From contig OX421967.1 of assembly GCA_949128115.1 (NCBI GenBank), forward strand, positions 59,904,855 to 59,968,854: a DNA stretch of 64,000 nt, in the 5' to 3' direction. Made by a program: the position numbers and the translations under genes. Under the pieces are notes generated by a model, which was not told the DNA's origin, did not search any database, and saw only the letters and a list, made by a program, of their open reading frames with translations. Positions 1 through 60,444 of the stretch are shown here, in pieces (the first letter of the stretch is position 1; the number at the start of each line of letters is the position of its first letter). Source of the DNA: Anaspis maculata. Its lineage: Eukaryota; Arthropoda; Insecta; Coleoptera; Scraptiidae.

Positions 1-270
1 CATTTGTCATTGAAATGGCGCAGGGTGAAGTCGACCCAACTTTCAGCATTGTCCTTGGATATTTGAAATTGTTACAAGATGACATATTCGATCCGCTCGA
101 TTCTGTTCTGACAAGGAACAATCTCAGAATATTCTCGCGACAACTGACGGAAGCTCTGGGGGAGATGACTGTGTCAGACAACACTGGGTCCTTGAGGGAG
201 CTTCTGGAACCCGAGCTGGAACCAGTGCAACGAATTCGGCCTCCGGGTTGTTCCCGAAACCGAAAAAACC

Positions 271-286
271 GGTTCTTTTCAGAACC
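271..286 (+). terminator. Histone-type 3' stem-loop in each unit
   Basis: GGTTCTTTTCAGAACC folds into a 6-bp stem (GGTTCT/AGAACC) with a TTTC loop. Replication-dependent histone mRNAs of animals have the same plan: 6-bp stem with two G-C pairs at the base, a pyrimidine run on the 5' arm, a 4-nt loop usually UUUC, and an A-rich flank. Here it is flanked by AAAAAACC and AAAAAT. It is repeated every 494 bp. Three units carry damaged versions: 4223-4238 and 6693-6708 (TC swapped to CT on the 5' arm, giving a mismatch and a wobble) and 12127-12142 (basal G to T). Confidence 0.75.
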
Positions 287-301
287 AAAAATCATATAAC
301 A

Positions 302-309
302 CAAAGAAA
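302..309 (+). promoter_or_regulatory. Histone downstream element-like purine tract
   Basis: CAAAGAAA begins 16 nt after the stem-loop, where the U7 snRNP-binding histone downstream element (CAAGAAAGA-like) lies in histone genes. It is repeated in every unit, followed by either ATGATCAC or GTGATCAC. Unit 25 has TAAAGAAA. Pairing to the U7 snRNA of this species has not been tested. Confidence 0.5.
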
Positions 310-381
310 ATGATCACAAAACGAATCAATCGAGAGAGAAATCTCGGAATAATGGGAAACTATCGTTTCTAGGAGAAACAC

Positions 382-397
382 GGCCACGTGGATGGCC
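382..397. promoter_or_regulatory. E-box palindrome upstream of each unit promoter
   Basis: GGCCACGTGGATGGCC contains CACGTG (385-390) within an imperfect palindrome, about 110 bp upstream of the predicted start site. It is present in every unit I inspected. An E-box here could bind bHLH factors; that is inference. Confidence 0.4.
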
Positions 398-427
398 AAG
401 TTTCACGTTTGAAGTTTTCAGACAGAT

Positions 428-508
428 CCAATATTTGTCACGCCTCACTGGTCGGACAGACAGGTATAAATACTAGGTCGAGCTGGCCACGATTCATTTG
501 TCATTGAA
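428..508 (+). promoter_or_regulatory. Array-unit Pol II promoter: CCAAT, TATA, Inr, DPE
   Basis: Read in unit 2 and repeated every 494 bp. CCAAT is at 428-432 (about -68), TATAAATA at 465-472, and the initiator TCATTT at 494-499, matching arthropod TCAKTY with A+1 at 496. The first T of the TATA box is at -31. AGTCG at 523-527 lies at +28 to +32 and matches the DPE consensus RGWYV. The ATG is at 509. A few units have TATAAATT instead (for example before ATGs 3967, 4955, 5449, 5943 and 11377). Confidence 0.8.
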
Positions 509-793
509 ATGGCGCAGGGTGAAGTCGACCCAACTTTCAGCATTGTCCTTGGATATTTGAAATTGTTACAAGATGACATATTCGATCCGCTCGATTCTGT
601 TCTGACAAGGAACAATCTCAGAATATTCTCGCGACAACTGACGGAAGCTCTGGAGGAGATGACTGTGTCAGACAACACTGGGTCCTTGAGGGAGCTTCTG
701 GAACCCGAGCTGGAACCAGTGCAACGAATTCGGCCTCCGGGTTGTTCCCGAAACCGAAAAAACCGGTTCTTTTCAGAACCAAAAATCATATAA
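509..793 (+). CDS. 94-aa read-through version of the array ORF (14 copies)
   Basis: In 14 units (ATGs 15, 509, every 494 bp from 2979 to 6437, and from 10389 to 11871) the TGA after codon 78 is TGT. The frame then runs through the 3' hairpin and ends at a TAA about 12 nt beyond it, adding 16 residues that include the hairpin-encoded RFFSEPK. If the transcript were cleaved in histone fashion just after the hairpin, this version would have no in-frame stop. So either these copies are not translated, or 3' ends form elsewhere. The two versions occur in blocks along the array rather than alternating. Confidence 0.4.
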   Translation: MAQGEVDPTFSIVLGYLKLLQDDIFDPLDSVLTRNNLRIFSRQLTEALEEMTVSDNTGSLRELLEPELEPVQRIRPPGCSRNRKNRFFSEPKII

Positions 794-1002
794 CACAAAG
801 AAAGTGATCACAAAACGAATCAATCGAGAGAGAAATCTCGGAATAATGGGAAACTATCGTTTCTAGGAGAAACACGGCCACGTGGATGGCCAAGTTTCAC
901 GTTTGAAGTTTTCAGACAGATCCAATATTTGTCACGCCTCACTGGTCGGACAGACAGGTATAAATACTAGGTCAAGCTGGCCACGATTCATTTGTCATTG
1001 AA

Positions 1003-1239
1003 ATGGCGCAGGGTGAAGTCGACCCAACTTTCAGCATTGTCCTTGAATATTTGAAATTGTTACAAGATGACATATTCGATCCGCTCGATTCTGTTCTGAC
1101 AAGGAACAATCTCAGAATATTCTCGCGACAACTGACGGAAGCTCTGGAGGAGATGACTGAGTCAGACAACACTGGGTCCTTGAGGGAGCTTCTGGAACCC
1201 GAGCTGGAACCAGTACAACGAATTCGGCCTCCGGGTTGA
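1003..1239 (+). CDS. 78-aa acidic ORF of the array (stop-containing type, 20 copies)
   Basis: This represents the 20 units whose ORF ends at a TGA before the 3' hairpin; ATGs are at 1003, 1497, 1991, 2485, 6931, 7425, 7919, 8413, 8907, 9401, 9895 and every 494 bp from 12365 to 16317. The product starts MAQGEVDPTFSIV and is predicted largely helical and acidic, with a Leu/Glu/Pro-rich end near residues 60-71. I recognise no domain and it is not a histone. The ATG lies 13 nt after the predicted start site. Variation among copies is mostly non-synonymous (T9I, G15E, S30F, R42L, E49G, V53E, L60S, E62K, I74T) with few silent changes, so selection on the peptide is not evident. It may be a real short protein, a relic, or incidental to a functional RNA. 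Confidence 0.5.
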   Translation: MAQGEVDPTFSIVLEYLKLLQDDIFDPLDSVLTRNNLRIFSRQLTEALEEMTESDNTGSLRELLEPELEPVQRIRPPG

Positions 1240-4200
1240 TCCCGAAACCGAAAAAACCGGTTCTTTTCAGAACCAAAAATCATATAACACAAAGAAAGTG
1301 ATCACAAAACGAATCAATCGAGAGAGAAATCTCGGAATAATGGGAAACTATCGTTTCTAGGAAAAACACGGCCACGTGGATGGCCAAGTTTAACGTTTGA
1401 AGTTTTCAGACAGATCCAATATTTGTCACGCCTCACTGGTCGGACAGACAGGTATAAATACTAGGTCGAGCTGGCCACGATTCATTTGTCATTGAAATGG
1501 CGCAGGGTGAAGTCGACCCAACTTTCAGCATTGTCCTTGGATATTTGAAATTGTTACAAGATGACATATTCGATCCGCTCGATTTTGTTCTGACAAGGAA
1601 CAATCTCAGAATATTCTCGCGACAACTGACGGAAGCTCTGGAGGAGATGACTGTGTCAGACAACACTGGGTCTTCGAGGGAGCTTCTGGAACCCGAGCTG
1701 GAACCAGTACAACGAACTCGGCCTCCGGGTTGATCCCGAAACCGAAAAAACCGGTTCTTTTCAGAACCAAAAATCATATAACACAAAGAAAATGATCACA
1801 AAACGAATCAATCGAGAGAGAAATCTCGGAATAATGGGAAACAATCGTTTCAAGGAAAAACACGGCCACGTGGATGGCCAAGTTTCACGTTTGAAGTTTT
1901 CAGACAGATCCAATATTTGTCACGCCTCACTGGTCGGACAGACAGGTATAAATACTAGGTCGAGCTGGCCACGATTCATTTGTCATTGAAATGGCGCAGG
2001 GTGAAGTCGACCCAACTTTCAGCATTGTCCTTGGATATTTGAAATTGTTACAAGATGACATATTCGATCCGCTCGATTCTGTTCTGACAAGGAACAATCT
2101 CAGAATATTCTCGCTACAACTGACGGAAGCTCTGGAGGAAATGACTGTGTCAGACAACACTGGGTCTTCGAGGGAGCTTCTGGAACCCGAGCTGGAACCA
2201 GTACAACGAACTCGGCCTCCGGGTTGATCCCGAAACCGAAAAAACCGGTTCTTTTCAGAACCAAAAATCATAAAACACAAAGAAAGTGATCACAAAACGA
2301 ATCAATCGAGAGAGAAATCTCGGAATAATGGGAAACTATCGTTTCTAGGAGAAACACGGCCACGTGGATGGCCAAGTTTCACGTTTGAAGTTTTCAGACA
2401 GATCCAATATTTGTCACGCCTCACTGGTCGGACAGACAGGTATAAATACTAGGTCGAGCTGGCCACGATTCATTTGTCATTGAAATGGCGCAGGGTGAAG
2501 TCGACCCAACTTTCAGCATTGTCCTTGGATATTTGAAATTGTTACAAGATGACATATTCGATCCGCTCGATTCTGTTCTGACAAGGAACAATCTCAGAAT
2601 ATTCTCGCGACAACTGACGGAAGCTCTGGGGGAGATGACTGAGTCAGACAACACTGGGTCCTTGAGGGAGCTTCTGGAACCCGAGCTGGAACCAGTGCAA
2701 CGAATTCGGCCTCCGGGTTGATCCCGAAACCGAAAAAACCGGTTCTTTTCAGAACCAAAAATCATATAACACAAAGAAAGTGATCACAAAACGAATCAAT
2801 CGAGAGAGAAATCTCGGAATAATGGGAAACTATCGTTTCTAGGAGAAACACGGCCACGTGGATGGCCAAGTTTCACGTTTGAAGTTTTCAGACAGATCCA
2901 ATATTTGTCACGCCTCACCGGTCGGACAGACAGGTATAAATACTAGGTCGAGCTGGCCACGATTCATTTGTCATTGAAATGGCGCAGGGTGAAGTCGACC
3001 CAATTTTCAGCATTGTCCTTGAATATTTGAAATTGTTACAAGATGACATATTCGATCCGCTCGATTCTGTTCTGACAAGGAACAATCTCAGAATATTCTC
3101 GCGACAACTGACGGAAGCTCTGGAGGAGATGACTGTGTCAGACAACACTGGGTCCTTGAGGGAGCTTCTGGAACCCGAGCTGGAACCAGTACAACGAATT
3201 CGGCCTCCGGGTTGTTCCCGAAACCGAAAAAACCGGTTCTTTTCAGAACCAAAAATCATATAACACAAAGAAAATGATCACAAAACGAATCAATCGAGAG
3301 AGAAATCTCGGAATAATGGGAAACTATCGTTTCTAGGAGAAACACGGCCACGTGGATGGCCAAGTTTCACGTTTGAAGTTTTCAGACAGATCCAATATTT
3401 GTCACGCCTCACTGGTCGGACAGACAGGTATAAATACTAGGTCAAGCTGGCCACGATTCATTTGTCATTGAAATGGCGCAGGGTGAAGTCGACCCAACTT
3501 TCAGCATTGTCCTTGGATATTTGAAATTGTTACAAGATGACATATTCGATCCGCTCGATTCTGTTCTGACAAGGAACAATCTCAGAATATTCTCGCGACA
3601 ACTGACGGAAGCTCTGGAGGAGATGACTGTGTCAGACAACACTGGGTCCTTGAGGGAGCTTCTGGAACCCGAGCTGGAACCAGTGCAACGAATTCGGCCT
3701 CCGGGTTGTTCCCGAAACCGAAAAAACCGGTTCTTTTCAGAACCAAAAATCATATAACACAAAGAAAATGATCACAAAACGAATCAATCGAGAGAGAAAT
3801 CTCGGAATAATGGGAAACTATCGTTTCTAGGAGAAACACGGCCACGTGGATGGCCAAGTTTCACGTTTGAAGTTTTCAGACAGATCCAATATTTGTCACG
3901 CCTCACCGGTCGGACAGACAGGTATAAATTCTAGGTCGAGCTGGCCACGATTCATTTGTCATTGAAATGGCGCAGGGTGAAGTCGACCCAACTTTCAGCA
4001 TTGTCCTTGGATATTTGAAATTGTTACAAGATGACATATTCGATCCGCTCGATTCTGTTCTGACAAGGAACAATCTCAGAATATTCTCGCGACAACTGAC
4101 GGAAGCTCTGGAGGAGATGACTGTGTCAGACAACACTGGGTCCTTGAGGGAGCTTCTGGAACCCGAGCTGGAACCAGTACAACGAATTCGGCCTCCGGGT

Positions 4201-7200
4201 TGTTCCCGAAACCGAAAAAACCGGTCTTTTTCAGAACCAAAAATCATATAACACAAAGAAAGTGATCACAAAACGAATCAATCGAGAGAGAAATCTCGGA
4301 ATAATGGGAAACTATCGTTTCTAGGAGAAACACGGCCACGTGGATGGCCAAGTTTCACGTTTGAAGTTTTCAGACAGATCCAATATTTGTCACGCCTCAC
4401 TGGTCGGACAGACAGGTATAAATACTAGGTCAAGCTGGCCACGATTCATTTGTCATTGAAATGGCGCAGGGTGAAGTCGACCCAACTTTCAGCATTGTCC
4501 TTGGATATTTGAAATTGTTACAAGATGACATATTCGATCCGCTCGATTCTGTTCTGACAAGGAACAATCTCAGAATATTCTCGCGACAACTGACGGAAGC
4601 TCTGGAGGAGATGACTGTGTCAGACAACACTGGGTCCTTGAGGGAGCTTCTGGAACCCGAGCTGGAACCAGTGCAACGAATTCGGCCTCCGGGTTGTTCC
4701 CGAAACCGAAAAAACCGGTTCTTTTCAGAACCAAAAATCATATAACACAAAGAAAATGATCACAAAACGAATCAATCGAGAGAGAAATCTCGGAATAATG
4801 GGAAACTATCGTTTCTAGGAGAAACACGGCCACGTGGATGGCCAAGTTTCACGTTTGAAGTTTTCAGACAGATCCAATATTTGTCACGCCTCACTGGTCG
4901 GACAGACAGGTATAAATTCTAGGTCGAGCTGGCCACGATTCATTTGTCATTGAAATGGCGCAGGGTGAAGTCGACCCAACTTTCAGCATTGTCCTTGGAT
5001 ATTTGAAATTGTTACAAGATGACATATTCGATCCGCTCGATTCTGTTCTGACAAGGAACAATCTCAGAATATTCTCGCGACAACTGACGGAAGCTCTGGA
5101 GGAGATGACTGTGTCAGACAACACTGGGTCCTTGAGGGAGCTTCTGGAACCCGAGCTGGAACCAGTGCAACGAATTCGGCCTCCGGGTTGTTCCCGAAAC
5201 CGAAAAAACCGGTTCTTTTCAGAACCAAAAATCATATAACACAAAGAAAATGATCACAAAACGAATCAATCGAGAGAGAAATCTCGGAATAATGGGAAAC
5301 AATCGTTTCAAGGAAAAACACGGCCACGTGGATGGCCAAGTTTCACGTTTGAAGTTTTCAGACAGATCCAATATTTGTCACGCCTCACCGGTCGGACAGA
5401 CAGGTATAAATTCTAGGTCGAGCTGGCCACGATTCATTTGTCATTGAAATGGCGCAGGGTGAAGTCGACCCAACTTTCAGCATTGTCCTTGGATATTTGA
5501 AATTGTTACAAGATGACATATTCGATCCGCTCGATTCTGTTCTGACAAGGAACAATCTCAGAATATTCTCGCGACAACTGACGGAAGCTCTGGAGGAGAT
5601 GACTGTGTCAGACAACACTGGGTCCTTGAGGGAGCTTCTGGAACCCGAGCTGGAACCAGTGCAACGAATTCGGCCTCCGGGTTGTTCCCGAAACCGAAAA
5701 AACCGGTTCTTTTCAGAACCAAAAATCATATAACACAAAGAAAATGATCACAAAACGAATCAATCGAGAGAGAAATCTCGGAATAATGGGAAACTATCGT
5801 TTCTAGGAGAAACACGGCCACGTGGATGGCCAAGTTTCACGTTTGAAGTTTTCAGACAGATCCAATATTTGTCACGCCTCACCGGTCGGACAGACAGGTA
5901 TAAATTCTAGGTCGAGCTGGCCACGATTCATTTGTCATTGAAATGGCGCAGGGTGAAGTCGACCCAACTTTCAGCATTGTCCTTGGATATTTGAAATTGT
6001 TACAAGATGACATATTCGATCCGCTCGATTCTGTTCTGACAAGGAACAATCTCAGAATATTCTCGCGACAACTGACGGAAGCTCTGGAGGAGATGACTGT
6101 GTCAGACAACACTGGGTCCTTGAGGGAGCTTCTGGAACCCGAGCTGGAACCAGTGCAACGAATTCGGCCTCCGGGTTGTTCCCGAAACCGAAAAAACCGG
6201 TTCTTTTCAGAACCAAAAATCATATAACACAAAGAAAATGATCACAAAACGAATCAATCGAGAGAGAAATCTCGGAATAATGGGAAACTATCGTTTCTAG
6301 GAGAAACACGGCCACGTGGATGGCCAAGTTTCACGTTTGAAGTTTTCAGACAGATCCAATATTTGTCACGCCTCACTGGTCGGACAGACAGGTATAAATA
6401 CTAGGTCAAGCTGGCCACGATTCATTTGTCATTGAAATGGCGCAGGGTGAAGTCGACCCAACTTTCAGCATTGTCCTTGGATATTTGAAATTGTTACAAG
6501 ATGACATATTCGATCCGCTCGATTCTGTTCTGACAAGGAACAATCTCAGAATATTCTCGCGACAACTGACGGAAGCTCTGGAGGAGATGACTGTGTCAGA
6601 CAACACTGGGTCCTTGAGGGAGCTTCTGGAACCCGAGCTGGAACCAGTACAACGAATTCGGCCTCCGGGTTGTTCCCGAAACCGAAAAAACCGGTCTTTT
6701 TCAGAACCAAAAATCATATAACACAAAGAAAGTGATCACAAAACGAATCAATCGAGAGAGAAATCTCGGAATAATGGGAAACTATCGTTTCTAGGAGAAA
6801 CACGGCCACGTGGATGGCCAAGTTTCACGTTTGAAGTTTTCAGACAGATCCAATATTTGTCACGCCTCACTGGTCGGACAGACAGGTATAAATACTAGGT
6901 CAAGCTGGCCACGATTCATTTGTCATTGAAATGGCGCAGGGTGAAGTCGACCCAACTTTCAGCATTGTCCTTGAATATTTGAAATTGTTACAAGATGACA
7001 TATTCGATCCGCTCGATTCTGTTCTGACAAGGAACAATCTCAGAATATTCTCGCGACAACTGACGGAAGCTCTGGGGGAGATGACTGAGTCAGACAACAC
7101 TGGGTCCTTGAGGGAGCTTCTGGAACCCGAGCTGGAACCAGTACAACGAATTCGGCCTCCGGGTTGATCCCGAAACCGAAAAAACCGGTTCTTTTCAGAA

Positions 7201-10200
7201 CCAAAAATCATATAACACAAAGAAAGTGATCACAAAACGAATCAATCGAGAGAGAAATCTCAGAATAATGGGAAACTATCGTTTCTAGGAAAAACACGGC
7301 CACGTGGATGGCCAAGTTTAACGTTTGAAGTTTTCAGACAGATCCAATATTTGTCACGCCTCACTGGTCGGACAGACAGGTATAAATACTAGGTCGAGCT
7401 GGCCACGATTCATTTGTCATTGAAATGGCGCAGGGTGAAGTCGACCCAACTTTCAGCATTGTCCTTGGATATTTGAAATTGTTACAAGATGACATATTCG
7501 ATCCGCTCGATTTTGTTCTGACAAGGAACAATCTCAGAATATTCTCGCGACAACTGACGGAAGCTCTGGAGGAGATGACTGTGTCAGACAACACTGGGTC
7601 TTCGAGGGAGCTTCTGGAACCCGAGCTGGAACCAGTACAACGAACTCGGCCTCCGGGTTGATCCCGAAACCGAAAAAACCGGTTCTTTTCAGAACCAAAA
7701 ATCATATAACACAAAGAAAATGATCACAAAACGAATCAATCGAGAGAGAAATCTCGGAATAATGGGAAACAATCGTTTCAAGGAAAAACACGGCCACGTG
7801 GATGGCCAAGTTTCACGTTTGAAGTTTTCAGACAGATCCAATATTTGTCACGCCTCACTGGTCGGACAGACAGGTATAAATACTAGGTCGAGCTGGCCAC
7901 GATTCATTTGTCATTGAAATGGCGCAGGGTGAAGTCGACCCAACTTTCAGCATTGTCCTTGGATATTTGAAATTGTTACAAGATGACATATTCGATCCGC
8001 TCGATTCTGTTCTGACAAGGAACAATCTCAGAATATTCTCGCTACAACTGACGGAAGCTCTGGAGGAAATGACTGTGTCAGACAACACTGGGTCTTCGAG
8101 GGAGCTTCTGGAACCCGAGCTGGAACCAGTACAACGAACTCGGCCTCCGGGTTGATCCCGAAACCGAAAAAACCGGTTCTTTTCAGAACCAAAAATCATA
8201 AAACACAAAGAAAGTGATCACAAAACGAATCAATCGAGAGAGAAATCTCGGAATAATGGGAAACTATCGTTTCTAGGAGAAACACGGCCACGTGGATGGC
8301 CAAGTTTCACGTTTGAAGTTTTCAGACAGATCCAATATTTGTCACGCCTCACTGGTCGGACAGACAGGTATAAATACTAGGTCGAGCTGGCCACGATTCA
8401 TTTGTCATTGAAATGGCGCAGGGTGAAGTCGACCCAACTTTCAGCATTGTCCTTGGATATTTGAAATTGTTACAAGATGACATATTCGATCCGCTCGATT
8501 CTGTTCTGACAAGGAACAATCTCAGAATATTCTCGCGACAACTGACGGAAGCTCTGGGGGAGATGACTGAGTCAGACAACACTGGGTCCTTGAGGGAGCT
8601 TCTGGAACCCGAGCTGGAACCAGTACAACGAATTCGGCCTCCGGGTTGATCCCGAAACCGAAAAAACCGGTTCTTTTCAGAACCAAAAATCATATAACAC
8701 AAAGAAAGTGATCACAAAACGAATCAATCGAGAGAGAAATCTCGGAATAATGGGAAACTATCGTTTCTAGGAGAAACACGGCCACGTGGATGGCCAAGTT
8801 TCACGTTTGAAGTTTTCAGACAGATCCAATATTTGTCACGCCTCACTGGTCGGACAGACAGGTATAAATACTAGGTCGAGCTGGCCACGATTCATTTGTC
8901 ATTGAAATGGCGCAGGGTGAAGTCGACCCAATTTTCAGCATTGTCCTTGAATATTTGAAATTGTTACAAGATGACATATTCGATCCGCTCGATTCTGTTC
9001 TGACAAGGAACAATCTCAGAATATTCTCGCGACAACTGACGGAAGCTCTGGGGGAGATGACTGAGTCAGACAACACTGGGTCCTTGAGGGAGCTTCTGGA
9101 ACCCGAGCTGGAACCAGTACAACGAATTCGGCCTCCGGGTTGATCCCGAAACCGAAAAAACCGGTTCTTTTCAGAACCAAAAATCATATAACACAAAGAA
9201 AGTGATCACAAAACGAATCAATCGAGAGAGAAATCTCGGAATAATGGGAAACTATCGTTTCTAGGAGAAACACGGCCACGTGGATGGCCAAGTTTCACGT
9301 TTGAAGTTTTCAGACAGATCCAATATTTGTCACGCCTCACTGGTCGGACAGACAGGTATAAATACTAGGTCGAGCTGGCCACGATTCATTTGTCATTGAA
9401 ATGGCGCAGGGTGAAGTCGACCCAACTTTCAGCATTGTCCTCGGATATTTGAAATTGTTACAAGATGACATATTCGATCCGCTCGATTCTGTTCTGACAA
9501 GGAACAATCTCAGAATATTCTCGCGACAACTGACGGAAGCTCTGGGGGAGATGACTGAGTCAGACAACACTGGGTCCTTGAGGGAGCTTCTGGAACCCGA
9601 GCTGGAACCAGTACAACGAATTCGGCCTCCGGGTTGATCCCGAAACCGAAAAAACCGGTTCTTTTCAGAACCAAAAATCATATAACACAAAGAAAGTGAT
9701 CACAAAACGAATCAATCGAGAGAGAAATCTCGGAATAATGGGAAACTATCGTTTCTAGGAGAAACACGGCCACGTGGATGGCCAAGTTTCACGTTTGAAG
9801 TTTTCAGACAGATCCAATATTTGTCACGCCTCACTGGTCGGACAGACAGGTATAAATACTAGGTCGAGCTGGCCACGATTCATTTGTCATTGAAATGGCG
9901 CAGGGTGAAGTCGACCCAACTTTCAGCATTGTCCTTGGATATTTGAAATTGTTACAAGATGACATATTCGATCCGCTCGATTCTGTTCTGACAAGGAACA
10001 ATCTCAGAATATTCTCGCGACAACTGACGGAAGCTCTGGAGGAGATGACTGTGTCAGACAACACTGGGTCTTCGAGGAAGCTTCTGGAACCCGAGCTGGA
10101 ACCAGTACAACGAACTCGGCCTCCGGGTTGATCCCGAAACCGAAAAAACCGGTTCTTTTCAGAACCAAAAATCATATAACACAAAGAAAATGATCACAAA

Positions 10201-13200
10201 ACGAATCAATCGAGAGAGAAATCTCGGAATAATGGGAAACAATCGTTTCAAGGAAAAACACGGCCACGTGGATGGCCAAGTTTCACGTTTGAAGTTTTCA
10301 GACAGATCCAATATTTGTCACGCCTCACTGGTCGGACAGACAGGTATAAATACTAGGTCGAGCTGGCCACGATTCATTTGTCATTGAAATGGCGCAGGGT
10401 GAAGTCGACCCAACTTTCAGCATTGTCCTTGGATATTTGAAATTGTTACAAGATGACATATTCGATCCGCTCGATTCTGTTCTGACAAGGAACAATCTCA
10501 GAATATTCTCGCGACAACTGACGGAAGCTCTGGAGGAGATGACTGTGTCAGACAACACTGGGTCCTTGAGGGAGCTTCTGGAACCCGAGCTGGAACCAGT
10601 GCAACGAATTCGGCCTCCGGGTTGTTCCCGAAACCGAAAAAACCGGTTCTTTTCAGAACCAAAAATCATATAACACAAAGAAAATGATCACAAAACGAAT
10701 CAATCGAGAGAGAAATCTCGGAATAATGGGAAACTATCGTTTCTAGGAGAAACACGGCCACGTGGATGGCCAAGTTTCACGTTTGAAGTTTTCAGACAGA
10801 TCCAATATTTGTCACGCCTCACTGGTCGGACAGACAGGTATAAATACTAGGTCAAGCTGGCCACGATTCATTTGTCATTGAAATGGCGCAGGGTGAAGTC
10901 GACCCAACTTTCAGCATTGTCCTTGGATATTTGAAATTGTTACAAGATGACATATTCGATCCGCTCGATTCTGTTCTGACAAGGAACAATCTCAGAATAT
11001 TCTCGCGACAACTGACGGAAGCTCTGGAGGAGATGACTGTGTCAGACAACACTGGGTCCTTGAGGGAGCTTCTGGAACCCGAGCTGGAACCAGTGCAACG
11101 AATTCGGCCTCCGGGTTGTTCCCGAAACCGAAAAAACCGGTTCTTTTCAGAACCAAAAATCATATAACACAAAGAAAATGATCACAAAACGAATCAATCG
11201 AGAGAGAAATCTCGGAATAATGGGAAACAATCGTTTCAAGGAAAAACACGGCCACGTGGATGGCCAAGTTTCACGTTTGAAGTTTTCAGACAGATCCAAT
11301 ATTTGTCACGCCTCACCGGTCGGACAGACAGGTATAAATTCTAGGTCGAGCTGGCCACGATTCATTTGTCATTGAAATGGCGCAGGGTGAAGTCGACCCA
11401 ACTTTCAGCATTGTCCTTGGATATTTGAAATTGTTACAAGATGACATATTCGATCCGCTCGATTCTGTTCTGACAAGGAACAATCTCAGAATATTCTCGC
11501 GACAACTGACGGAAGCTCTGGAGGAGATGACTGTGTCAGACAACACTGGGTCCTTGAGGGAGCTTCTGGAACCCGAGCTGGAACCAGTGCAACGAATTCG
11601 GCCTCCGGGTTGTTCCCGAAACCGAAAAAACCGGTTCTTTTCAGAACCAAAAATCATATAACACAAAGAAAATGATCACAAAACGAATCAATCGAGAGAG
11701 AAATCTCGGAATAATGGGAAACTATCGTTTCTAGGAGAAACACGGCCACGTGGATGGCCAAGTTTCACGTTTGAAGTTTTCAGACAGATCCAATATTTGT
11801 CACGCCTCACTGGTCGGACAGACAGGTATAAATACTAGGTCAAGCTGGCCACGATTCATTTGTCATTGAAATGGCGCAGGGTGAAGTCGACCCAACTTTC
11901 AGCATTGTCCTTGGATATTTGAAATTGTTACAAGATGACATATTCGATCCGCTCGATTCTGTTCTGACAAGGAACAATCTCAGAATATTCTCGCGACAAC
12001 TGACGGAAGCTCCGGAGGAGATGACTGTGTCAGACAACACTGGGTTTTTGAGGGAGCTTCTGGAACCCGAGCTGGAACCAGTACAACGAATTCGGCCTCC
12101 GGGTTGTTCCCGAAACCGAAAAAACCTGTTCTTTTCAGAACCAAGAATCATATAACATAAAGAAAATGATCACAAAACGAATCAATCGAGAGAGAAATCT
12201 CGGAATAATGGGAAACTATCGTTTCTAGGAGAAACACGGCCACGTGGATGGCCAAGTTTCACGTTTGAAGTTTTCAGACAGATCCAATATTTGTCACGCC
12301 TCACTGGTCGGACAGACAGGTATAAATACTAGGTCGAGCTGGCCACGATTCATTTGTCATTGAAATGGCGCAGGGTGAAGTCGACCCAACTTTCAGCATT
12401 GTCCTTGGATATTTGAAATTGTTACAAGATGACATATTCGATCCGCTCGATTCTGTTCTGACAAGGAACAATCTCAGAATATTCTCGCGACAACTGACGG
12501 AAGCTCTGGGGGAGATGACTGAGTCAGACAACACTGGGTCCTTGAGGGAGCTTCTGGAACCCGAGCTGGAACCAGTACAACGAATTCGGCCTCCGGGTTG
12601 ATCCCGAAACCGAAAAAACCGGTTCTTTTCAGAACCAAAAATCATATAACACAAAGAAAGTGATCACAAAACGAATCAATCGAGAGAGAAATCTCGGAAT
12701 AATGGGAAACTATCGTTTCTAGGAGAAACACGGCCACGTGGATGGCCAAGTTTCACGTTTGAAGTTTTCAGACAGATCCAATATTTGTCACGCCTCACTG
12801 GTCGGACAGACAGGTATAAATACTAGGTCGAGCTGGCCACGATTCATTTGTCATTGAAATGGCGCAGGGTGAAGTCGACCCAATTTTCAGCATTGTCCTT
12901 GAATATTTGAAATTGTTACAAGATGACATATTTGATCCGCTCGATTCTGTTCTGACAAGGAACAATCTCAGAATATTCTCGCGACAACTGACGGAAGCTC
13001 TGGGGGAGATGACTGAGTCAGACAACACTGGGTCCTTGAGGGAGCTTCTGGAACCCGAGCTGGAACCAGTACAACGAATTCGGCCTCCGGGTTGATCCCG
13101 AAACCGAAAAAACCGGTTCTTTTCAGAACCAAAAATCATATAACACAAAGAAAGTGATCACAAAACGAATCAATCGAGAGAGAAATCTCGGAATAATGGG

Positions 13201-16200
13201 AAACTATCGTTTCTAGGAGAAACACGGCCACGTGGATGGCCAAGTTTCACGTTTGAAGTTTTCAGACAGATCCAATATTTGTCACGCCTCACTGGTCGGA
13301 CAGACAGGTATAAATACTAGGTCGAGCTGGCCACGATTCATTTGTCATTGAAATGGCGCAGGGTGAAGTCGACCCAACTTTCAGCATTGTCCTCGGATAT
13401 TTGAAATTGTTACAAGATGACATATTCGATCCGCTCGATTCTGTTCTGACAAGGAACAATCTCAGAATATTCTCGCGACAACTGACGGAAGCTCTGGGGG
13501 AGATGACTGAGTCAGACAACACTGGGTCCTTGAGGGAGCTTCTGGAACCCGAGCTGGAACCAGTACAACGAATTCGGCCTCCGGGTTGATCCCGAAACCG
13601 AAAAAACCGGTTCTTTTCAGAACCAAAAATCATATAACACAAAGAAAGTGATCACAAAACGAATCAATCGAGAGAGAAATCTCGGAATAATGGGAAACTA
13701 TCGTTTCTAGGAGAAACACGGCCACGTGGATGGCCAAGTTTCACGTTTGAAGTTTTCAGACAGATCCAATATTTGTCACGCCTCACTGGTCGGACAGACA
13801 GGTATAAATACTAGGTCGAGCTGGCCACGATTCATTTGTCATTGAAATGGCGCAGGGTGAAGTCGACCCAACTTTCAGCATTGTCCTTGGATATTTGAAA
13901 TTGTTACAAGATGACATATTCGATCCGCTCGATTCTGTTCTGACAAGGAACAATCTCAGAATATTCTCGCGACAACTGACGGAAGCTCTGGAGGAGATGA
14001 CTGTGTCAGACAACACTGGGTCTTCGAGGAAGCTTCTGGAACCCGAGCTGGAACCAGTACAACGAACTCGGCCTCCGGGTTGATCCCGAAACCGAAAAAA
14101 CCGGTTCTTTTCAGAACCAAAAATCATATAACACAAAGAAAATGATCACAAAACGAATCAATCGAGAGAGAAATCTCGGAATAATGGGAAACAATCGTTT
14201 CAAGGAAAAACACGGCCACGTGGATGGCCAAGTTTCACGTTTGAAGTTTTCAGACAGATCCAATATTTGTCACGCCTCACTGGTCGGACAGACAGGTATA
14301 AATACTAGGTCGAGCTGGCCACGATTCATTTGTCATTGAAATGGCGCAGGGTGAAGTCGACCCAACTTTCAGCATTGTCCTTGGATATTTGAAATTGTTA
14401 CAAGATGACATATTCGATCCGCTCGATTCTGTTCTGACAAGGAACAATCTCAGAATATTCTCGCTACAACTGACGGAAGCTCTGGAGGAAATGACTGTGT
14501 CAGACAACACTGGGTCTTCGAGGGAGCTTCTGGAACCCGAGCTGGAACCAGTACAACGAACTCGGCCTCCGGGTTGATCCCGAAACCGAAAAAACCGGTT
14601 CTTTTCAGAACCAAAAATCATAAAACACAAAGAAAGTGATCACAAAACGAATCAATCGAGAGAGAAATCTCGGAATAATGGGAAACTATCGTTTCTAGGA
14701 GAAACACGGCCACGTGGATGGCCAAGTTTCACGTTTGAAGTTTTCAGACAGATCCAATATTTGTCACGCCTCACTGGTCGGACAGACAGGTATAAATACT
14801 AGGTCGAGCTGGCCACGATTCATTTGTCATTGAAATGGCGCAGGGTGAAGTCGACCCAACTTTCAGCATTGTCCTTGGATATTTGAAATTGTTACAAGAT
14901 GACATATTCGATCCGCTCGATTCTGTTCTGACAAGGAACAATCTCAGAATATTCTCGCGACAACTGACGGAAGCTCTGGAGGAGATGACTGTGTCAGACA
15001 ACACTGGGTCCTTGAGGGAGCTTCTGGAACCCGAGCTGGAACCAGTACAACGAACTCGGCCTCCGGGTTGATCCCGAAACCGAAAAAACCGGTTCTTTTC
15101 AGAACCAAAAATCATAAAACACAAAGAAAGTGATCACAAAACGAATCAATCGAGAGAGAAATCTCGGAATAATGGGAAACAATCGTTTCAAGGAAAAACA
15201 CGGCCACGTGGATGGCCAAGTTTCACGTTTGAAGTTTTCAGACAGATCCAATATTTGTCACGCCTCACTGGTCGGACAGACAGGTATAAATACTAGGTCG
15301 AGCTGGCCACGATTCATTTGTCATTGAAATGGCGCAGGGTGAAGTCGACCCAACTTTCAGCATTGTCCTTGGATATTTGAAATTGTTACAAGATGACATA
15401 TTCGATCCGCTCGATTCTGTTCTGACAAGGAACAATCTCAGAATATTCTCGCTACAACTGACGGAAGCTCTGGAGGAAATGACTGTGTCAGACAACACTG
15501 GGTCTTCGAGGGAGCTTCTGGAACCCGAGCTGGAACCAGTACAACGAACTCGGCCTCCGGGTTGATCCCGAAACCGAAAAAACCGGTTCTTTTCAGAACC
15601 AAAAATCATAAAACACAAAGAAAGTGATCACAAAACGAATCAATCGAGAGAGAAATCTCGGAATAATGGGAAACTATCGTTTCTAGGAGAAACACGGCCA
15701 CGTGGATGGCCAAGTTTCACGTTTGAAGTTTTCAGACAGATCCAATATTTGTCACGCCTCACTGGTCGGACAGACAGGTATAAATACTAGGTCGAGCTGG
15801 CCACGATTCATTTGTCATTGAAATGGCGCAGGGTGAAGTCGACCCAACTTTCAGCATTGTCCTTGGATATTTGAAATTGTTACAAGATGACATATTCGAT
15901 CCGCTCGATTCTGTTCTGACAAGGAACAATCTCAGAATATTCTCGCGACAACTGACGGAAGCTCTGGGGGAGATGACTGAGTCAGACAACACTGGGTCCT
16001 TGAGGGAGCTTCTGGAACCCGAGCTGGAACCAGTACAACGAATTCGGCCTCCGGGTTGATCCCGAAACCGAAAAAACCGGTTCTTTTCAGAACCAAAAAT
16101 CATATAACACAAAGAAAGTGATCACAAAACGAATCAATCGAGAGAGAAATCTCGGAATAATGGGAAACTATCGTTTCTAGGAGAAACACGGCCACGTGGA

Positions 16201-16810
16201 TGGCCAAGTTTCACGTTTGAAGTTTTCAGACAGATCCAATATTTGTCACGCCTCACTGGTCGGACAGACAGGTATAAATACTAGGTCGAGCTGGCCACGA
16301 TTCATTTGTCATTGAAATGGCGCAGGGTGAAGTCGACCCAATTTTCAGCATTGTCCTTGAATATTTGAAATTGTTACAAGATGACATATTTGATCCGCTC
16401 GATTCTGTTCTGACAAGGAACAATCTCAGAATATTCTCGCGACAACTGACGGAAGCTCTGGAGGAGATGACTGTGTCAGACAACACTGGGTCCTTGAGGG
16501 AGCTTCTGGAACCCGAGCTTGAACCAGTACAACGAACTCGGCCTCCGGGTTGATCCCGAAACCGAAAAAACCGGTTCTTTTCAGAACCAAAAATCATATA
16601 ACACAAAGAAAATGGTCACAAAACGAATCAATCGAGAGAGAACTCTCGGAATAATGGGAAACTATCGTTTCTAGGAAAAACACGGCCACGTGGATGGCCA
16701 AGTTTCACGTTTGAAGTTTTCAGACAGATCCAATATTTGTCACGCCTCACTGGTCGGACAGACAGGTATAAATACTAGGTCGAGCTGGCCACGATTCATT
16801 TGTCATTGAA

Positions 16811-16996
16811 ATGGCGCAGGGTGAAGTCGACCCAACTTTCAGCATTGTCCTTGGATATTTGAAATTGTTACAAGATGACATATTCGATCCGCTCGATTCT
16901 GTTCTGACAAGGAACAATCTCAGAATATTACATTATAATACACTACACGTAAATTCAATAATACCATTACACCACTATCGGCTAGGTTGTTGTTGA
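16811..16996 (+). pseudogene. Truncated last array unit
   Basis: Unit 35 keeps the promoter and the first 39 codons, then at 16930 runs into unrelated sequence and reaches a stop at 16996. It has no stem-loop. This marks the right edge of the array. Confidence 0.85.
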
Positions 16997-38539: not shown

Positions 38540-38550
38540 GGGATACGGAC

Positions 38551-39016
38551 ATTTCACCGACAACCAACTCACCGACAGGACATTTCACCGACACCCAACT
38601 CACCGAATCGCCGATTCACCGACAGGACATTTCACCGACTCGCCGTTTCGCCGACAGGACATCTCACCGACACGCCGATTCACCGACAGGACAATTCACC
38701 GACAGGACATTTCACCGACACGCCGATTCACCGACAGGACAATTTACCGACTCGCCGATTCACCGACTCGCCATTTCACCGACAGGACATTTCACCGAAT
38801 CGCCGATTCACCGACAGGACATTTCACCGACACGCCATTTCACCGACAGGACATTTCACCGACACGCCATTTCACCGACAGGACATTTCACCGACACGCC
38901 ATTTCACCGACAGGACCTTTCACCGACACGCCATTTCACCGACGGGACATTTCACCGACGGGACATTTCACCGACACGCCATTTCGCCGACAGGACATTT
39001 CACCGACAGGACTGTA
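38551..39016. repeat. 16-bp minisatellite, left inverted terminus
   Basis: About 29 units alternate between ATTTCACCGACAGGAC and ATTTCACCGACACGCC. Because 16 is not a multiple of 3 and the unit has no stop in any of these frames, two overlapping long ORFs appear (177 and 167 aa); they are artefacts. Confidence 0.9.
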
Positions 39017-43334: not shown

Positions 43335-43820
43335 CTAAATCGGCGAGTCGGTGGAATTTTCCGTCGGTGAATTGTCTTGTCGGTGAATCGGCGTGCCGGT
43401 GAAATGTCCTGTCGGTGAAATGACGTGTCGGTGAAATGGCGTGTCGGTGAAATGTCCTGTCGGTAAATCGGCGTGTCGGTGAAATGTCCTGTCGGTGAGA
43501 TGGCGTGTCGGTGAAATGTCCTGTCGGTGAAATGTCCTGTCGGTGAAAGGGCGTGTCGGTGAAATGTCCTGTCGGTGAAATGGCGTGTCGGCGAAGTGTC
43601 CTGTCGGTGAAATGTCCTGTCGGTGAATCGGCGTGTCGGTTGAATGTCTTGTCGGCGAAATGGCGAGTCGGCGAATTGTCTTGTCGGTGAAATGTCCTGT
43701 CGGTGAATCGGCGAGTCGGTGAAATGTCCTGTCGGCGAAACGGCGTGTCGGTGAAATGTCCGTTCGGTGAAATGGTTGTCGGTGAAATGTCCTGTCGGTG
43801 AGTTGGTTGTCGGTGAAATG
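43335..43820. repeat. 16-bp minisatellite, right inverted terminus
   Basis: The same 16-bp repeat as at 38551-39016 but in reverse orientation (GTCGGTGAAATGTCCT and variants). The first ~50 bp of the two termini match most closely, including ACATTTCACCGACAACC. Confidence 0.9.
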
Positions 43821-43830
43821 TACCAAACCC

Positions 43831-47521: not shown

Positions 47522-49767
47522 CAGTGGCGGACTAAGGGAATTGGGGGCCCGGGGCGGAATTGTGAGATGGGGCCCCTAAGGTGTGAAAGTTGAGAATATG
47601 AAGGGGGGCCGGCAGACTTTTTGGCCCGCCCTGCCCGGCCGTAATTGAGCAAAAGCCTAAGAAACCAAAAATAAGTTGGTTACTTGACTACATATAAAAA
47701 ACACAGTAGCGCAGTCAGAATTTGAGGGCGGAGAGGGCAAAGGCAACGGCGGCGGCGAGGGTGTAAGTCAGGGAAAAGTAGCGCCACAGGCGAAATTTTT
47801 TGGGCATAGTAATAATGATGCTGATGACAATCGGTATATTGCATGCCTCCTGTTACGATTTCGGTTTTTGACGTTTTCACCAAAATTACTTGACAATCAA
47901 ACTTCTTTTCAGAAAACTTTTGCGCTTCTTGAAAATTTTCGCCAGAATTTTTTTCTGTATCGGTTTATAATAATAATAATAATACTTTATTTTCATCGTA
48001 CACAAGATACAGAAAACATCCAACAGGTAAATAACCCAGTTAAAGGATGAAAACAATATAAAAACAAGTTGATACAACAGAACAAAGCAAAAGACAGCCA
48101 CAAATAAACAAACATCTAAAATACATTCAATATGTCCTGCCTGCTACAACAAAACAAATCGAGCCTATCTTCAACTTCACTATAGCGAGAATACATTTTA
48201 TACAATGGTGCTGATAAAAGTATATTTGTCCTTGCAGTAGGCATGTTAAAAATATTATTACGTCGAGACGAGATGCGTGGAACCCTATACTCCACCCGAT
48301 CCGTCAACGAAGAGCAGTCAATATTACCATTTAAAATCTTAAACAAAAACAACACAGCACCAGCATCTCTCCGACTTCTGAGCAATTTCATATTAAAGCG
48401 GTTAAGTAAAAGTTCTTGGGGAAATCCCCGAGGAGGATAGAAACCGTCCATAAGGCGAGAGGCTGCCTTCAGAAAGCGCCGCTGTATATTTTCAAGATCA
48501 GAAATATACACCCTATAAATAGGATCCCAGACAAGGGAGGCATACTCTAATCGTGATCTGACGAATGCATTGTACAACACACGCAAGGTTTCAAAATTTC
48601 TGAAGCCAGCCCCGTTCCGCAAAACAAAGCCCAGACCCCGAAAGGCAGAGGCCGTCACCAATTCAACGTGCTTTGCGAAAGTGAGCCTGGAGTCGAAGGT
48701 AACGCCCAGATCTTTGACATGTTCAGGTCTCTGCAAGACAATGTCACCCAGAGTGTAATCGTACAGTATAATGTCACTTTTGCGAGTAAAAGTCATCACA
48801 TTACACTTAGAAGCATTCAGACACAGCCCATTCTCTCCACACCACTCACGAACAACCACCAAATCGCGCTGCAAAGCAAGGCAATCCTCGACCGTCTTCA
48901 CTTCACGAAACAACTTAAGGTCGTCCGCATAAAGAAGCGACTCCATCGAGATCTTGGCAAGGATATCATTAATGAAGATGTTAAAAAACATCGGGCCCAA
49001 CACGGATCCTTGAGGAACACCGGATGGCTGGTGATAATACGAGGATCTGAAACCATTATGTTGGACAAACTGTAGTCTATCCTGGAGATATGATTTAACA
49101 AGTTCAACAAGAGTTTAGTGTGGGATGAAGTGCCGCGGGCGCTTGGGAGGTGGAGGGGTGGGGTCATTCGCCCACTTTCGCCCCACTTGGCTATGCCACT
49201 GACCCAGTACCTACAACAAGTTTTCGGTTCCAACTTTGGATGTTGGATTGGATTTGGACTGTTGACTTATTGCTAGAACTTACTCGTATATATAAAATTC
49301 GGAATAATATGAATTTCTACTACCTGCAGCGCGCAGACAAGAAAATTTTGTTGTTTTGTCTTTCCCCTCTTTTGAAAAGAAATAAAAATACAAAATTTCA
49401 AAAGTCTTGAGGCCCCTGGCACTGTGATATCTTGGGCCGGAGCCCCTAAAGCGTAAAATGAAAATGATTCGCAGAGATTCAGTGATACAGACACACCTAT
49501 ATTGCCTCTGTGTAGGCCCCCAGGCCTGTTGTCATGGGGCCTGCCAAGGTAACTTTAAAATGGAAAAAATAGGAAAACAATGTTTCTCACCGAAGTAATA
49601 TGCGAAAAAAATGATCATCGAGGGAAAAAATTGAAATTTTTGGATTTTATCCCAATTTTTTTGCAGTATTTTTTACAAACAAGAGGAATTGGGGGCCCCA
49701 TTAGATGATTGAGGCCCCGAGGCCCGGGGCGGACCGCCCCCACCGCCCCCCCCTTAGTCCGCCACTG
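47522..49767. mobile_element. hAT-type non-autonomous element, 8-bp duplication
   Basis: CAGTGGCGGACTAAGGG at 47522 and its complement ending at 49767 are 17-bp inverted termini with the CAGTGGCGG start typical of hAT elements. CCCTGAAC flanks both ends (47514-47521 and 49768-49775). No hAT transposase is present. The interior contains G/C-rich subterminal tracts and a nested reverse transcriptase fragment. A second hAT-like terminus (CTATGCCACTG, 49190-49201) lies inside. Confidence 0.85.
48116..49116 (-). pseudogene. 5'-truncated non-LTR retrotransposon reverse transcriptase
   Basis: The minus-strand frame runs from about 49116 to a stop at 48116. It includes the RT fingers/palm motif GVPQGSVLGP, the catalytic YADD box (LLYADDLKLF) and the DLGVTFD segment, followed by the thumb-like C-terminus. 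The N-terminal RT and the endonuclease are missing. Its 3' side ends in AATAAAG followed by an (ATT)n tract (about 47968-47985), the usual target-primed insertion tail. The frame is otherwise intact, so the insertion is probably not old. It cannot be autonomous. Confidence 0.8.
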
Positions 49768-51422: not shown

Positions 51423-51673
51423 TCCGTAAAATTCCTCCCAGGATTGCAAAGAAGCAGAAGCTGAGGAAACTCTTCCAAGAAGAGCAGATGGCTCTTCACC
51501 GTCTATTTCTGGAGCTCGATAAGTTGCTTTCAGTAAAAATACGTCAAGCATTGGAATGAATTGTTAAAAAATAAAATAACTATTCGGAATCTGTCTTTTT
51601 ATATACACCTTATTTCAACCTGAAAATCACATATAAATATAAAAAATACCAAGGATTTCACTTAGTTGAGAAT

Positions 51674-52366
51674 ATGAAACTGGAAAAGCAAAATCACACA
51701 CTGCCTGTTACAAACTATGATGAGGTTGTTTCAGATATGCAAAATTTCTACACGCACGGTGCGTTATTGGGAGGTTGCAAACGGGGTTTGATAGTTGGCG
51801 GAAGCGGTTGCGGCAAAACAAATTTGATGTTAAGTTTGTTAGAGCACCCGAACGGCTTGCGATTTCGAAATATTTATTTATACTGCAAAACCCTTCTCCA
51901 ACCAAAATATTTACACTTGAAAAAAATTCTAAAACCAATCAAAGAAATCGGATTTTTTGAATTTCAAGATGGAGCAGACGTCATACCACCAAATCAAGCA
52001 AATGAGAATTCAGTTATAATTTTTGACGATGTTATATCATGCAATCAAAATATTATCAGAGACTACTTTAGTTTTGGCAGACATAGAAATATTGATTGTT
52101 TCTATTTAGCACAAACATATTCCTCAATACCAAAGCAATTGGTGAGAGACAATGCAAATTTTCTAATCCTTTTCAAACAGGACACATTGAATTTGGAGCA
52201 CATATTGAACAATCATGTCGCACCGGACATGAGCAGAGAACAATTCAGAGATATTTGTGCACAGTGTTGGCGGGAACCTCACGGCTTTTTAACGATAGAC
52301 AAAGATTCACCTATAAATAACGGGAGATACCGCAGAGGACTTGATTGTTTTATAACAGACATCTAA
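51674..52366 (+). CDS. A32-like DNA-packaging ATPase (FtsK/HerA type)
   Basis: This 230-residue protein is the genome-packaging motor of Polintons and related double-jelly-roll viruses, which pumps DNA into the preformed capsid at the cost of ATP. Walker A is GGSGCGKT (residues 42-49) in a LIVGGSGCGKTN context. Walker B is VIIFDDV, with acidic residues near 118-119. A sensor-like segment (YLAQTYSSIPK, around 145-155) follows. Length is normal for the family. TATAAATA lies about 40 bp upstream of the ATG, and the next gene starts 18 bp after the stop, so the two are probably co-transcribed. The frame is intact. Confidence 0.9.
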   Translation: MKLEKQNHTLPVTNYDEVVSDMQNFYTHGALLGGCKRGLIVGGSGCGKTNLMLSLLEHPNGLRFRNIYLYCKTLLQPKYLHLKKILKPIKEIGFFEFQDGADVIPPNQANENSVIIFDDVISCNQNIIRDYFSFGRHRNIDCFYLAQTYSSIPKQLVRDNANFLILFKQDTLNLEHILNNHVAPDMSREQFRDICAQCWREPHGFLTIDKDSPINNGRYRRGLDCFITDI

Positions 52367-52384
52367 GAAGCAAGATCATTACCA

Positions 52385-53395
52385 ATGAATGAACGGATAG
52401 CACGACAGTTGATTAAGAGCCGAGCGGCTGTCAGAAAGAAACTTGAAGGTTTACGCTCTGATATAACCCGTATGAGTTTTGAACGTGGAAAAAATTTGGC
52501 ACCTATCACAAAACCGTTGAAGGATTTATTGAGTAATATTAAATCAGAAGTGAAAACCCCTCCAACCCCCATAAAAAATGAAATAAAAAATGAAATAAAA
52601 AATGAAATTAGTTACAAAGAAAAGTTCCCCGGTCGCAAAAGTGCTCCTTCATTCTCGGAAGATGTTTTTACCAACGATGATGATGATGATGCTGTTGGCA
52701 GCGATATGGAAACTCAGGAAGATGATCAATATGTGTCATTGCATGAAATATCCAAACATGAAGAAGTAATGAATGAATATTTAGAGCAGTATAGTGGTTT
52801 AGCTAAAGAATATATCAGGAATATGATTGGAGATACTGAAAATCAATTTGATCATCAATATGGAATTCGACTAGATCGCTCTACAGAAAAATTCTCTATT
52901 GGTAACAAAATAGTACAGTTTATTGGTGATGATGTTAAAATTGATGGTGTGACATATAAAGGAACACCCGGTCTGTATGAGTTCCTCTTTAAGAAGGAAC
53001 CTGGAGACTATACACTCGAAGACGAAAGAAATTATAAAGCAATTATGGAACTCTCTAGTGCGGCAAGACAACACTATGATCCTACACATCGCCTAGCCGG
53101 AAACGGTGGAAGAAAGTATTCCATAGTAAAACGAATTTTATCTCAACCAGACATGACACCACGACGTTTCACAACACCCACATCTCTAAACAAACGCTCA
53201 CGTACCAAGTCAGGTGCAGGAGCATTTCTTCATTTGAATAATAAAGAAGTAGAATTCATCCCATGGAAAAACCCGAATAAATTGGTCAACAGATTGAGAT
53301 TGCTGATTGCTGCACAGCATGCTGGTAATACAGCAGTGGATAATGAAATATTACATATAATTCAAGAACTCAAACAATCACGCATTATAAAATGA
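52385..53395 (+). CDS. Conserved Polinton protein (DUF8207-like)
   Basis: A 336-residue protein next to the ATPase. The N-terminal third is basic and probably helical, with a short KNEI repeat around residues 62-73 encoded by a tandem AAAAATGAAAT run. An acidic patch (DDDDD) lies near 100. The conserved core around 155-235 has the pattern FDHQYGIRLD...FSIGN...DGVTYKGTPGLYEFLF, typical of a protein found next to packaging ATPases in many insect Polintons; I believe this is the DUF8207 family, but the name is from memory. The C-terminal part is basic. The function is unknown; a virion or packaging role is a guess from position. Confidence 0.7.
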   Translation: MNERIARQLIKSRAAVRKKLEGLRSDITRMSFERGKNLAPITKPLKDLLSNIKSEVKTPPTPIKNEIKNEIKNEISYKEKFPGRKSAPSFSEDVFTNDDDDDAVGSDMETQEDDQYVSLHEISKHEEVMNEYLEQYSGLAKEYIRNMIGDTENQFDHQYGIRLDRSTEKFSIGNKIVQFIGDDVKIDGVTYKGTPGLYEFLFKKEPGDYTLEDERNYKAIMELSSAARQHYDPTHRLAGNGGRKYSIVKRILSQPDMTPRRFTTPTSLNKRSRTKSGAGAFLHLNNKEVEFIPWKNPNKLVNRLRLLIAAQHAGNTAVDNEILHIIQELKQSRIIK

Positions 53396-53502
53396 AGTGA
53401 AAGCTCAATCAACACGCAGTCATATCAGAGACAGTTAACATGATTGACAAGTTTGGCAGATCACTGGTGCATATAGTGCGGGCGCTAAGAGCCAAAATTG
53501 GG

Positions 53503-54887: not shown

Positions 54888-54938
54888 TCACCTAGTGCCC
54901 CCACTAATAAGAAAAAGAGTGATGACTCGGAAAAAGCA

Positions 54939-55310
54939 ATGAAAAACTTAGAACAAAAGATATCACATCACCAAACTACTACAGATCAATATTTTTATGT
55001 AACACTGAATTTTTTCAGTAATACCCTAGGATTTTCAGATCCAAACAAAAAATACTTTTTATATAAATTATACAATATTCCTGGTTTCAACCATTATGAA
55101 ATTCCTTTTGAAGTGGTTGAGCTCGTTGACGCAAGCATAACTGCAAAGGTAGGAGTTGCAACGCTCAATCCAATAACCAACACAATAACTTTTTACGAAG
55201 ATATCAAAAAGGTTCCGTACGAAAGACGATTAAAATTTTCATTCTATTCTAATAGTGTTAAAAGTCCACCAACGTTAGTTGCAACTCTTGTATTTAAATG
55301 TAAAAAATAA
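54939..55310 (+). CDS. Small unknown Polinton protein
   Basis: From ATG 54939 the frame gives 123 residues. The open frame begins further upstream, at 54735, but that part lies in the right arm of the inverted repeat and includes no conserved-looking sequence, so I prefer the internal start. The protein starts with a charged helix (MKNLEQKI), then appears rich in beta strands, with hydrophobic/aromatic alternation and a Lys-rich end. No family is recognised. Its TAA overlaps the ATG of the integrase by one base (TAATG), so translation of the two may be coupled. Confidence 0.6.
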   Translation: MKNLEQKISHHQTTTDQYFYVTLNFFSNTLGFSDPNKKYFLYKLYNIPGFNHYEIPFEVVELVDASITAKVGVATLNPITNTITFYEDIKKVPYERRLKFSFYSNSVKSPPTLVATLVFKCKK

Positions 55311-56227: not shown

Positions 56228-56431
56228 TTGAATAAATATTTTTTTTTAACAAAGCTGTTTTAATTGAAATAAGGAAAGAGAGTTCACTAAACTTGTATGA
56301 TTACCTTGAAAATGTGGGAGGGAGGGGGGAGCAAACTTGACCTTGAGCTATAACAAGTTCTCAAATAGGGAGGTATGGTGGGGGAAAGTCGATATAATGG
56401 AGAATGGGATTAGATAGGTTTAGTTCTCATC

Positions 56432-57317: not shown

Positions 57318-57412
57318 ATTAATTGAAAAAAAATCTTTATTTGTTTCTTTACACAAAGTTTCCCGCAATGAGTAAATAAATCCTTATATTATTGTAAACT
57401 AGGAACAGTGCA

Positions 57413-57829: not shown

Positions 57830-57830
57830 A

Positions 57831-59186: not shown

Positions 59187-59331
59187 TTTGCTCGACTGAC
59201 TGTATCCAACTAACGTTATTCACGATTTATTCTATATTAATACTACATATCCTAAAGATCTTAAAAATCTACGATTCACTTGTGTTAAAGTATGCGTTTG
59301 AAAACACTGTTTAGGTCGGCGTGAAATTGTC

Positions 59332-60036: not shown

Positions 60037-60073
60037 TTTGTTCACACCAGAGCTAGCACTCAACTGACAAGAT

Positions 60074-60418: not shown

Positions 60419-60444
60419 ATCTGTTAGAGCACGTGTTGGTAGCT

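Follow-up and report, generated by a model that had tools for sequence, protein, structure and literature searches.

Drosophila has large tandem arrays of the Stellate type, which repeat a short protein-coding gene that may be selfish; we know of none that carries a histone stem-loop. The array that we describe here, from the beetle Anaspis maculata, is likewise a large tandem array of a short and possibly selfish protein-coding gene, but its protein is, as far as we are aware, unrelated to theirs. With satellite DNA it shares hundreds of near-identical head-to-tail units and local homogenisation, but its unit differs from a satellite unit in having a promoter-like region, an open reading frame (ORF) and a processing signal. 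This signal has the form of the 3' end of histone mRNAs. A 2009 paper (PMC2781718) treats the stem-loop end as exclusive to histone mRNAs and sees no evidence that SLBP acts on any other genes, and the titles and opening lines of abstracts in the open-licence literature yielded no report of non-histone stem-loop genes. The sequences presented below suggest that this histone-only mRNA ending may not be histone-only. If so, the presence in one genome of two non-histone arrays that are unrelated and carry the full signal would break the histone-only rule. It would also offer natural tests of what couples an mRNA to replication, and of the ability of selfish genes to exploit the histone pathway.

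The stretch of DNA that was analysed (the window) comprises 64,000 nucleotides, C7:59904855-59968854 (C7 being contig OX421967.1), of a genome of 757.8 Mb in 50 contigs. An initial annotation, made from the letters of the window alone, had proposed a 494-bp tandem array at positions 1..16929. This was confirmed on the forward strand, with a period of 494 bp, 34.3 copies and 98% matches. The window holds the right end of the array, and its left extent was sampled by 80-base pieces. The array was found in seven of seven probes placed at 40-kb steps from C7:59745000 to 59505000 and in all three finer probes from C7:59490000 to 59500000; it was absent from four of four finer probes from C7:59470000 to 59485000, from nine of nine probes from C7:59465000 to 59145000, and from all six pieces taken elsewhere on C7. 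The left continuation ends between C7:59485080 and C7:59490000 (about C7:59.487 Mb), which gives a length of about 435 kb and roughly 880 units, if the array is continuous between probes.

The part from C7:59785000 to the array edge (window position 16929) was read continuously and contains 273 unit starts. Counts over 267 given below refer to full units, in which the next start lies exactly 494 bp further on. The sole large break in the part read continuously lies at C7:59837005-59839237, where a DNA transposon of about 2.2 kb with inverted ends is inserted inside the ORF of one unit. The array is large and homogenised and its variants show local clusters; the 17 sites of a rare TATA variant that was used to map units are all located within C7:59.866-59.917 Mb.

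A typical unit consists, in this order, of the TATA box TATAAATA, the initiator-like motif TCATTT, placed at the proper distance from it, 13 nt, ATG, 78 codons, TGA, 19 bases, a hairpin, 15 bases and the element CAAAGAAA. The features are listed here in window coordinates.

385..390, no strand assigned: E-box-like CACGTG of the first unit, kept in 260 of 267 full units
428..432, forward strand: CCAAT-like motif, kept in 236 of 267 full units
465..472, forward strand: TATA box TATAAATA, present in 249 of 267 full units, with TATAAATT in 17 and TATGAATA in 1
494..499, forward strand: initiator-like TCATTT, with its A 31 bases downstream of the first base of the TATA box
509..793, forward strand: ORF of 94 codons in a unit whose codon 79 is TGT, running through the stem-loop to TAA
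1003..1239, forward strand: ORF of 78 aa in a unit whose codon 79 is TGA, stopping 19 bases before the stem-loop
1259..1274, forward strand: histone-type stem-loop GGTTCTTTTCAGAACC, given as an example, the first copy being at 271-286
1290..1297, forward strand: candidate histone downstream element CAAAGAAA, 15 bases after the stem, the first copy being at 302-309
16797..16929, forward strand: last unit, truncated to 133 bases, with the array edge inside the ORF

The start site predicted from this arrangement would leave a 5' untranslated region of 13 nt. The unit shows the traits of a histone-type mRNA gene in its uninterrupted short ORF and its TATA promoter, and neither AATAAA nor ATTAAA occurs in the first unit, which was searched for them. 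The ORF had been described at the outset as acidic and non-histone, and both properties were upheld: the product of the 78 codons has a pI of 4.3 and a mass of 8.8 kDa, and a Pfam search returned no family at E up to 10, so that no histone is encoded. No homologue was found in a protein library of 5.8 billion proteins, and in viral contigs none of the 14 stretches that fitted the word pattern was confirmed. The library covers insects, since a search with H1 of this genome returned beetle proteins (Tenebrio, Leptinotarsa) first among the named hits (best 120 of 2897). Judged from these searches, the array ORF looks like an orphan. Single-sequence structure prediction of its product gave three helices with a mean pLDDT of 59, which is too weak for a fold search.

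The initial annotation had further read the hairpin as a histone-type stem-loop present in the array units, followed 16 nt later by an element at the position of the U7-binding site, and both observations hold. The hairpin has a 6-bp stem of the form GGYYYU/ARRRCC and a 4-nt loop. It occurs at 34 places in the window with at most two mismatches (31 of them exact), compared with 0.07 expected from shuffles, and CAAAGAAA starts on the 16th base after the stem, with 15 bases between. Across the 267 full units, the stem-loop is exact in 199, fully paired in 214 and mismatched in 53. The Rfam model RF00032, applied to window positions 1-1500, detected three stem-loops at 30.8, 30.1 and 30.1 bits (E 1.7e-6 to 3.1e-6), which are below the curated cut-off of 34 bits; at the gathering threshold, nothing is reported in the window. 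A search of the genome with this model, in which 75 of 144960 candidates were scored, gave 13 sites over the cut-off (34.0-37.2 bits), all of them in the histone region on contig C4, and one more C4 site at 31.0 bits, while the best array copy among the matches listed scored 32.9 bits.

The histone region (C4:14.54-14.95 Mb) contains H1, H2A and H3 genes, identified by eye from their translations, with the hairpins GGCCCTTCTAAGGGCC, GGCCCTTCTCAGGGCC and GGTTCTTTTCAGAACC, respectively. A comparison with this species' own histone stem-loops had been proposed as a check, and it showed the same hairpin as in H3, to which the array hairpin is identical letter for letter, the same kind of element and the same spacing. 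The element is purine-rich and is located at the distance used by the histone genes of this species, the offset of CAAAGA from the stem being 15 in the array, in H3, in H2A and at two further C4 sites, 16 in H1 and 14 at another C4 site. The histone genes and the array are thus alike in their short intronless ORF, the H3 stem-loop, the kind and distance of the element and the presence of several copies together. They differ in that the array encodes neither a histone nor a Pfam domain, has a single gene in each unit and far more copies, and lies on a different chromosome.

We aligned ten stem-loops, taken from the array, the RING and RAG1-like genes described below, a gag-like neighbour and six sites of the C4 histone region. 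All 60 of 60 cells in this alignment pair, and two of the six pairs show changes on both sides. Three of five measures, including the number of paired cells and the covariation score, exceed the values of all 500 shuffles. As many pairs with changes on both sides were reached in 250 of the 500 shuffles, and as many further pair types in all 500. Because the alignment has related rows, its support goes to the class of hairpin rather more than to the array.

The occurrence of the combined pattern across the whole genome was examined by a scan that used the reverse complement of the hairpin plus element. There were 1232 matches (134 forward and 1098 reverse), and the reversed control gave 0 and 0. 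The matches include the histone region, the C7 array, an array of RING genes on contig C5, four RAG1-like copies and one Tc1-like remnant. In 26 matches GTGG is found beside the stem; 21 of these lie in the C4 histone region, four belong to the RAG1-like copies and one is on C1. Subtraction of the GTGG matches leaves 119 forward and 1087 reverse matches. The 119 forward matches agree with the C5 RING array. Since approximately 880 C7 units cannot give 1087 reverse matches, at least about 200 matches lie outside the places accounted for here, and the rare TATA variant used for mapping did not place this surplus.

The array on C5 is a second tandem array, which extends on the minus strand from C5:84802908 to about 84.92-84.93 Mb and accounts by subtraction for about 119 pattern matches. 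Probes were positive at four of four positions from 84890000 to 84920000 and negative at three of three from 84930000. Its 1054-bp unit encodes a RING-finger protein of 158 aa, which is acidic (pI 4.8). We read 32 units: the 158-aa ORF is found in 30, one has an ORF of 126 aa, and one, at the array edge, has an ORF of 113 aa and lacks the hairpin. A G-U pair replaces G-C in three of 31 hairpins. Searches of Pfam and PDB with the RING protein matched the RING domain alone, no homologue was found at E 1e-5 in the protein library (22 candidates), and three stretches of viral contigs were matched, of which none was confirmed. The two arrays are alike in consisting of a tandem non-histone gene with a histone-type 3' end and an acidic product. 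The C5 array differs in the length of its unit, its strand, its 158-aa RING protein and its hairpin, GGCCCTTCTAAGGGCC; it also has AATAAA further downstream, and no sequence similarity to the C7 array was noticed. On its sequence, it is a second, independent case of a putative histone-style end on a non-histone gene, and the same style in a second non-histone array makes a one-off coincidence very unlikely.

The remaining carriers are dispersed. A RAG1-like gene with an ORF of 473 aa is present in four copies on C1, C4 and C9 (two), which are 98.8-99.9% identical over about 2 kb and each have the hairpin and the element 3' of the ORF. The ORF matches PF12940 at E 5e-5 and 22.1 bits, under the family cut-off of 25 bits. 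At C1:90250974, the stem-loop and element directly follow the remnant of a Tc1-like transposase, recognised by eye, whose frame is broken by stops. A gag-like ORF also precedes a hairpin inside the C4 region, and this hairpin may simply belong to an interrupted H1 gene.

The genome encodes SLBP. Its RNA-binding domain (PF15247) is found over the cut-off on contig C3 in two adjoining pieces of 44.8 and 42.5 bits, covering profile positions 1-39 and 31-70, and the two stop codons in the first stretch are compatible with the edge of an exon. For U7 snRNA (RF00066), the genome gave no match over the cut-off, the best reaching 26 bits against 34, and weak matches of such a score were also found in 12 of 14 prokaryote control genomes. 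The 5' part of this weak 26-bit candidate resembles U7; its pairing with the array element (-3.3 kcal/mol) is the worst among the seven elements tried, and that with the H3 element is the best (-10.3 kcal/mol). A U7 pattern was located at 17 places, compared with eight for a control pattern, and none of the five places inspected is clearly U7.

Variation among the units was analysed for signs of selection. The ATG is retained in all 267 full units, of which 266 also have a frame that stays open over 78 codons or more. Coding variants comprise 43 non-synonymous and 18 synonymous changes, with 42.4 non-synonymous changes expected from a simulation without selection (P(N<=43)=0.63). Second codon positions are the most variable, and a codon-position test of selection showed no excess at third positions. 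One premature stop was seen against 2.5 expected, which is not significantly few (P(<=1)=0.26). Variable columns make up 57 of 234 in the ORF vs 90 of 260 outside it (p=0.014), and all four of the small length variants that were examined spare the ORF, one of them lying in the hairpin. The hairpin is not conserved above its surroundings: eight of its 16 columns are variable, a larger share than in the rest of the unit. In 76 of the 267 units the stop is replaced by TGT, and the frame stays open through the hairpin up to a TAA beginning 11 bases after the stem. The usual cleavage point is 4-5 nt after the stem. The TAA is beyond this expected site, and the TGT units, if cut after the stem-loop, would therefore yield an mRNA without a stop codon. 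Either these units ride along, tolerated because the array is so redundant, or histone-type processing does not apply to the array.

As a sequence feature, the histone-type 3' end is real and is present on two unrelated non-histone arrays of this genome; that it would work as such an end is the best reading of the evidence. We put the probability at about 0.6 that the C7 array consists of non-histone genes processed in the histone style by SLBP and U7, which have been amplified beyond need and are in part decaying. The open frames, the lower variability of the ORF columns and the lack of a poly(A) signal in the first unit favour this reading; the neutral ratio of coding changes, the mismatched stems, the lost stops, the unit interrupted by a transposon, the failure to find a homologue and the poor pairing of the best U7 candidate with the array element count against it. 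Transcription, processing, S-phase timing and a protein function, which we infer, might then be connected as follows. Each unit would be a minimal histone-style gene with a non-histone cargo, in which Pol II would start at the TATA box and initiator and transcribe the short intronless ORF. SLBP and the U7 snRNP, the latter reading the CAAAGAAAATGATC element, would cleave the pre-mRNA 4-5 nt past the stem-loop, releasing a non-polyadenylated mRNA of about 290 nt. This mRNA would be produced in large amounts and coupled to S phase. Expression in oogenesis or in cleavage-stage embryos would suit the copy number. The encoded acidic protein of 78 aa is probably helical and may be lineage-specific. 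Unequal exchange would keep the copy number up, as a consequence of which part of the array would have decayed through broken stems and lost stops. The proposal of the initial annotation, a histone-type cassette carrying other cargo, is in part sustained by the H3 hairpin, the element, the spacing, the SLBP gene and the second array; as to function, variation within the array gives no clear sign of selection on the protein or on the hairpin. The odds appear to us roughly even that the SLBP/U7 pathway serves a whole class of non-histone mRNAs, comprising two large unrelated arrays and probably mobile genes, with poly(A)-free, replication-coupled expression.

The neutral ratio of non-synonymous to synonymous changes, the stems broken in 53 and the stop lost in 76 of the 267 units, the homogenisation of an array some 435 kb long, its local clusters of variants and the result that no homologue of the ORF was found are consistent with satellite DNA, that is, with a gene with a histone-type 3' end that was once amplified and whose array is now mostly or wholly silent, drifting neutrally under unequal exchange. 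We consider this rather unlikely, although it deserves serious weight: 266 of 267 frames remain open for at least 78 codons, no small indel was seen in the ORF, the ORF columns are less variable, TATAAATA is kept in 249 of 267 units, and the unrelated second array retains its ORF, hairpin and element. It is also conceivable that a selfish gene, such as a Stellate-like driver acting in meiosis or in the embryo, took the histone 3' end for expression in S phase or in the oocyte without a poly(A) tail. The four RAG1-like copies, near-identical (98.8-99.9%) on three chromosomes and with the hairpin and element 3' of the ORF, the Tc1-like remnant (by eye) with the same end, the very high copy number and the absence of known homologues point in this direction, and the dispersed carriers suggest repeated use of this end by mobile or selfish genes, but there is no sign of positive selection, and we regard such an origin as improbable.

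The Rfam score of the hairpin, below the curated cut-off, would fit a chance inverted repeat or another element unrelated to histone 3' ends. We rejected a chance hairpin on the grounds of the exact identity to the H3 hairpin together with the spacing, the excess over shuffles in the window and the 0 control matches in 757.8 Mb, which make any such explanation highly implausible.

Several other features were observed in the window to the right of the array. Two minisatellites, at positions 38547-39012 and 43337-43821, have a common TGTCGGTGAAAT-type unit and lie on opposite strands, and a reverse transcriptase fragment (PF00078) is located at 48116-49114. Positions 51575-60927 hold genes of a Maverick/Polinton- or adintovirus-like element, namely those for an A32-like ATPase, an rve integrase, a protein with a phospholipase A2-like domain, a double-jelly-roll capsid protein and a C48-type protease.
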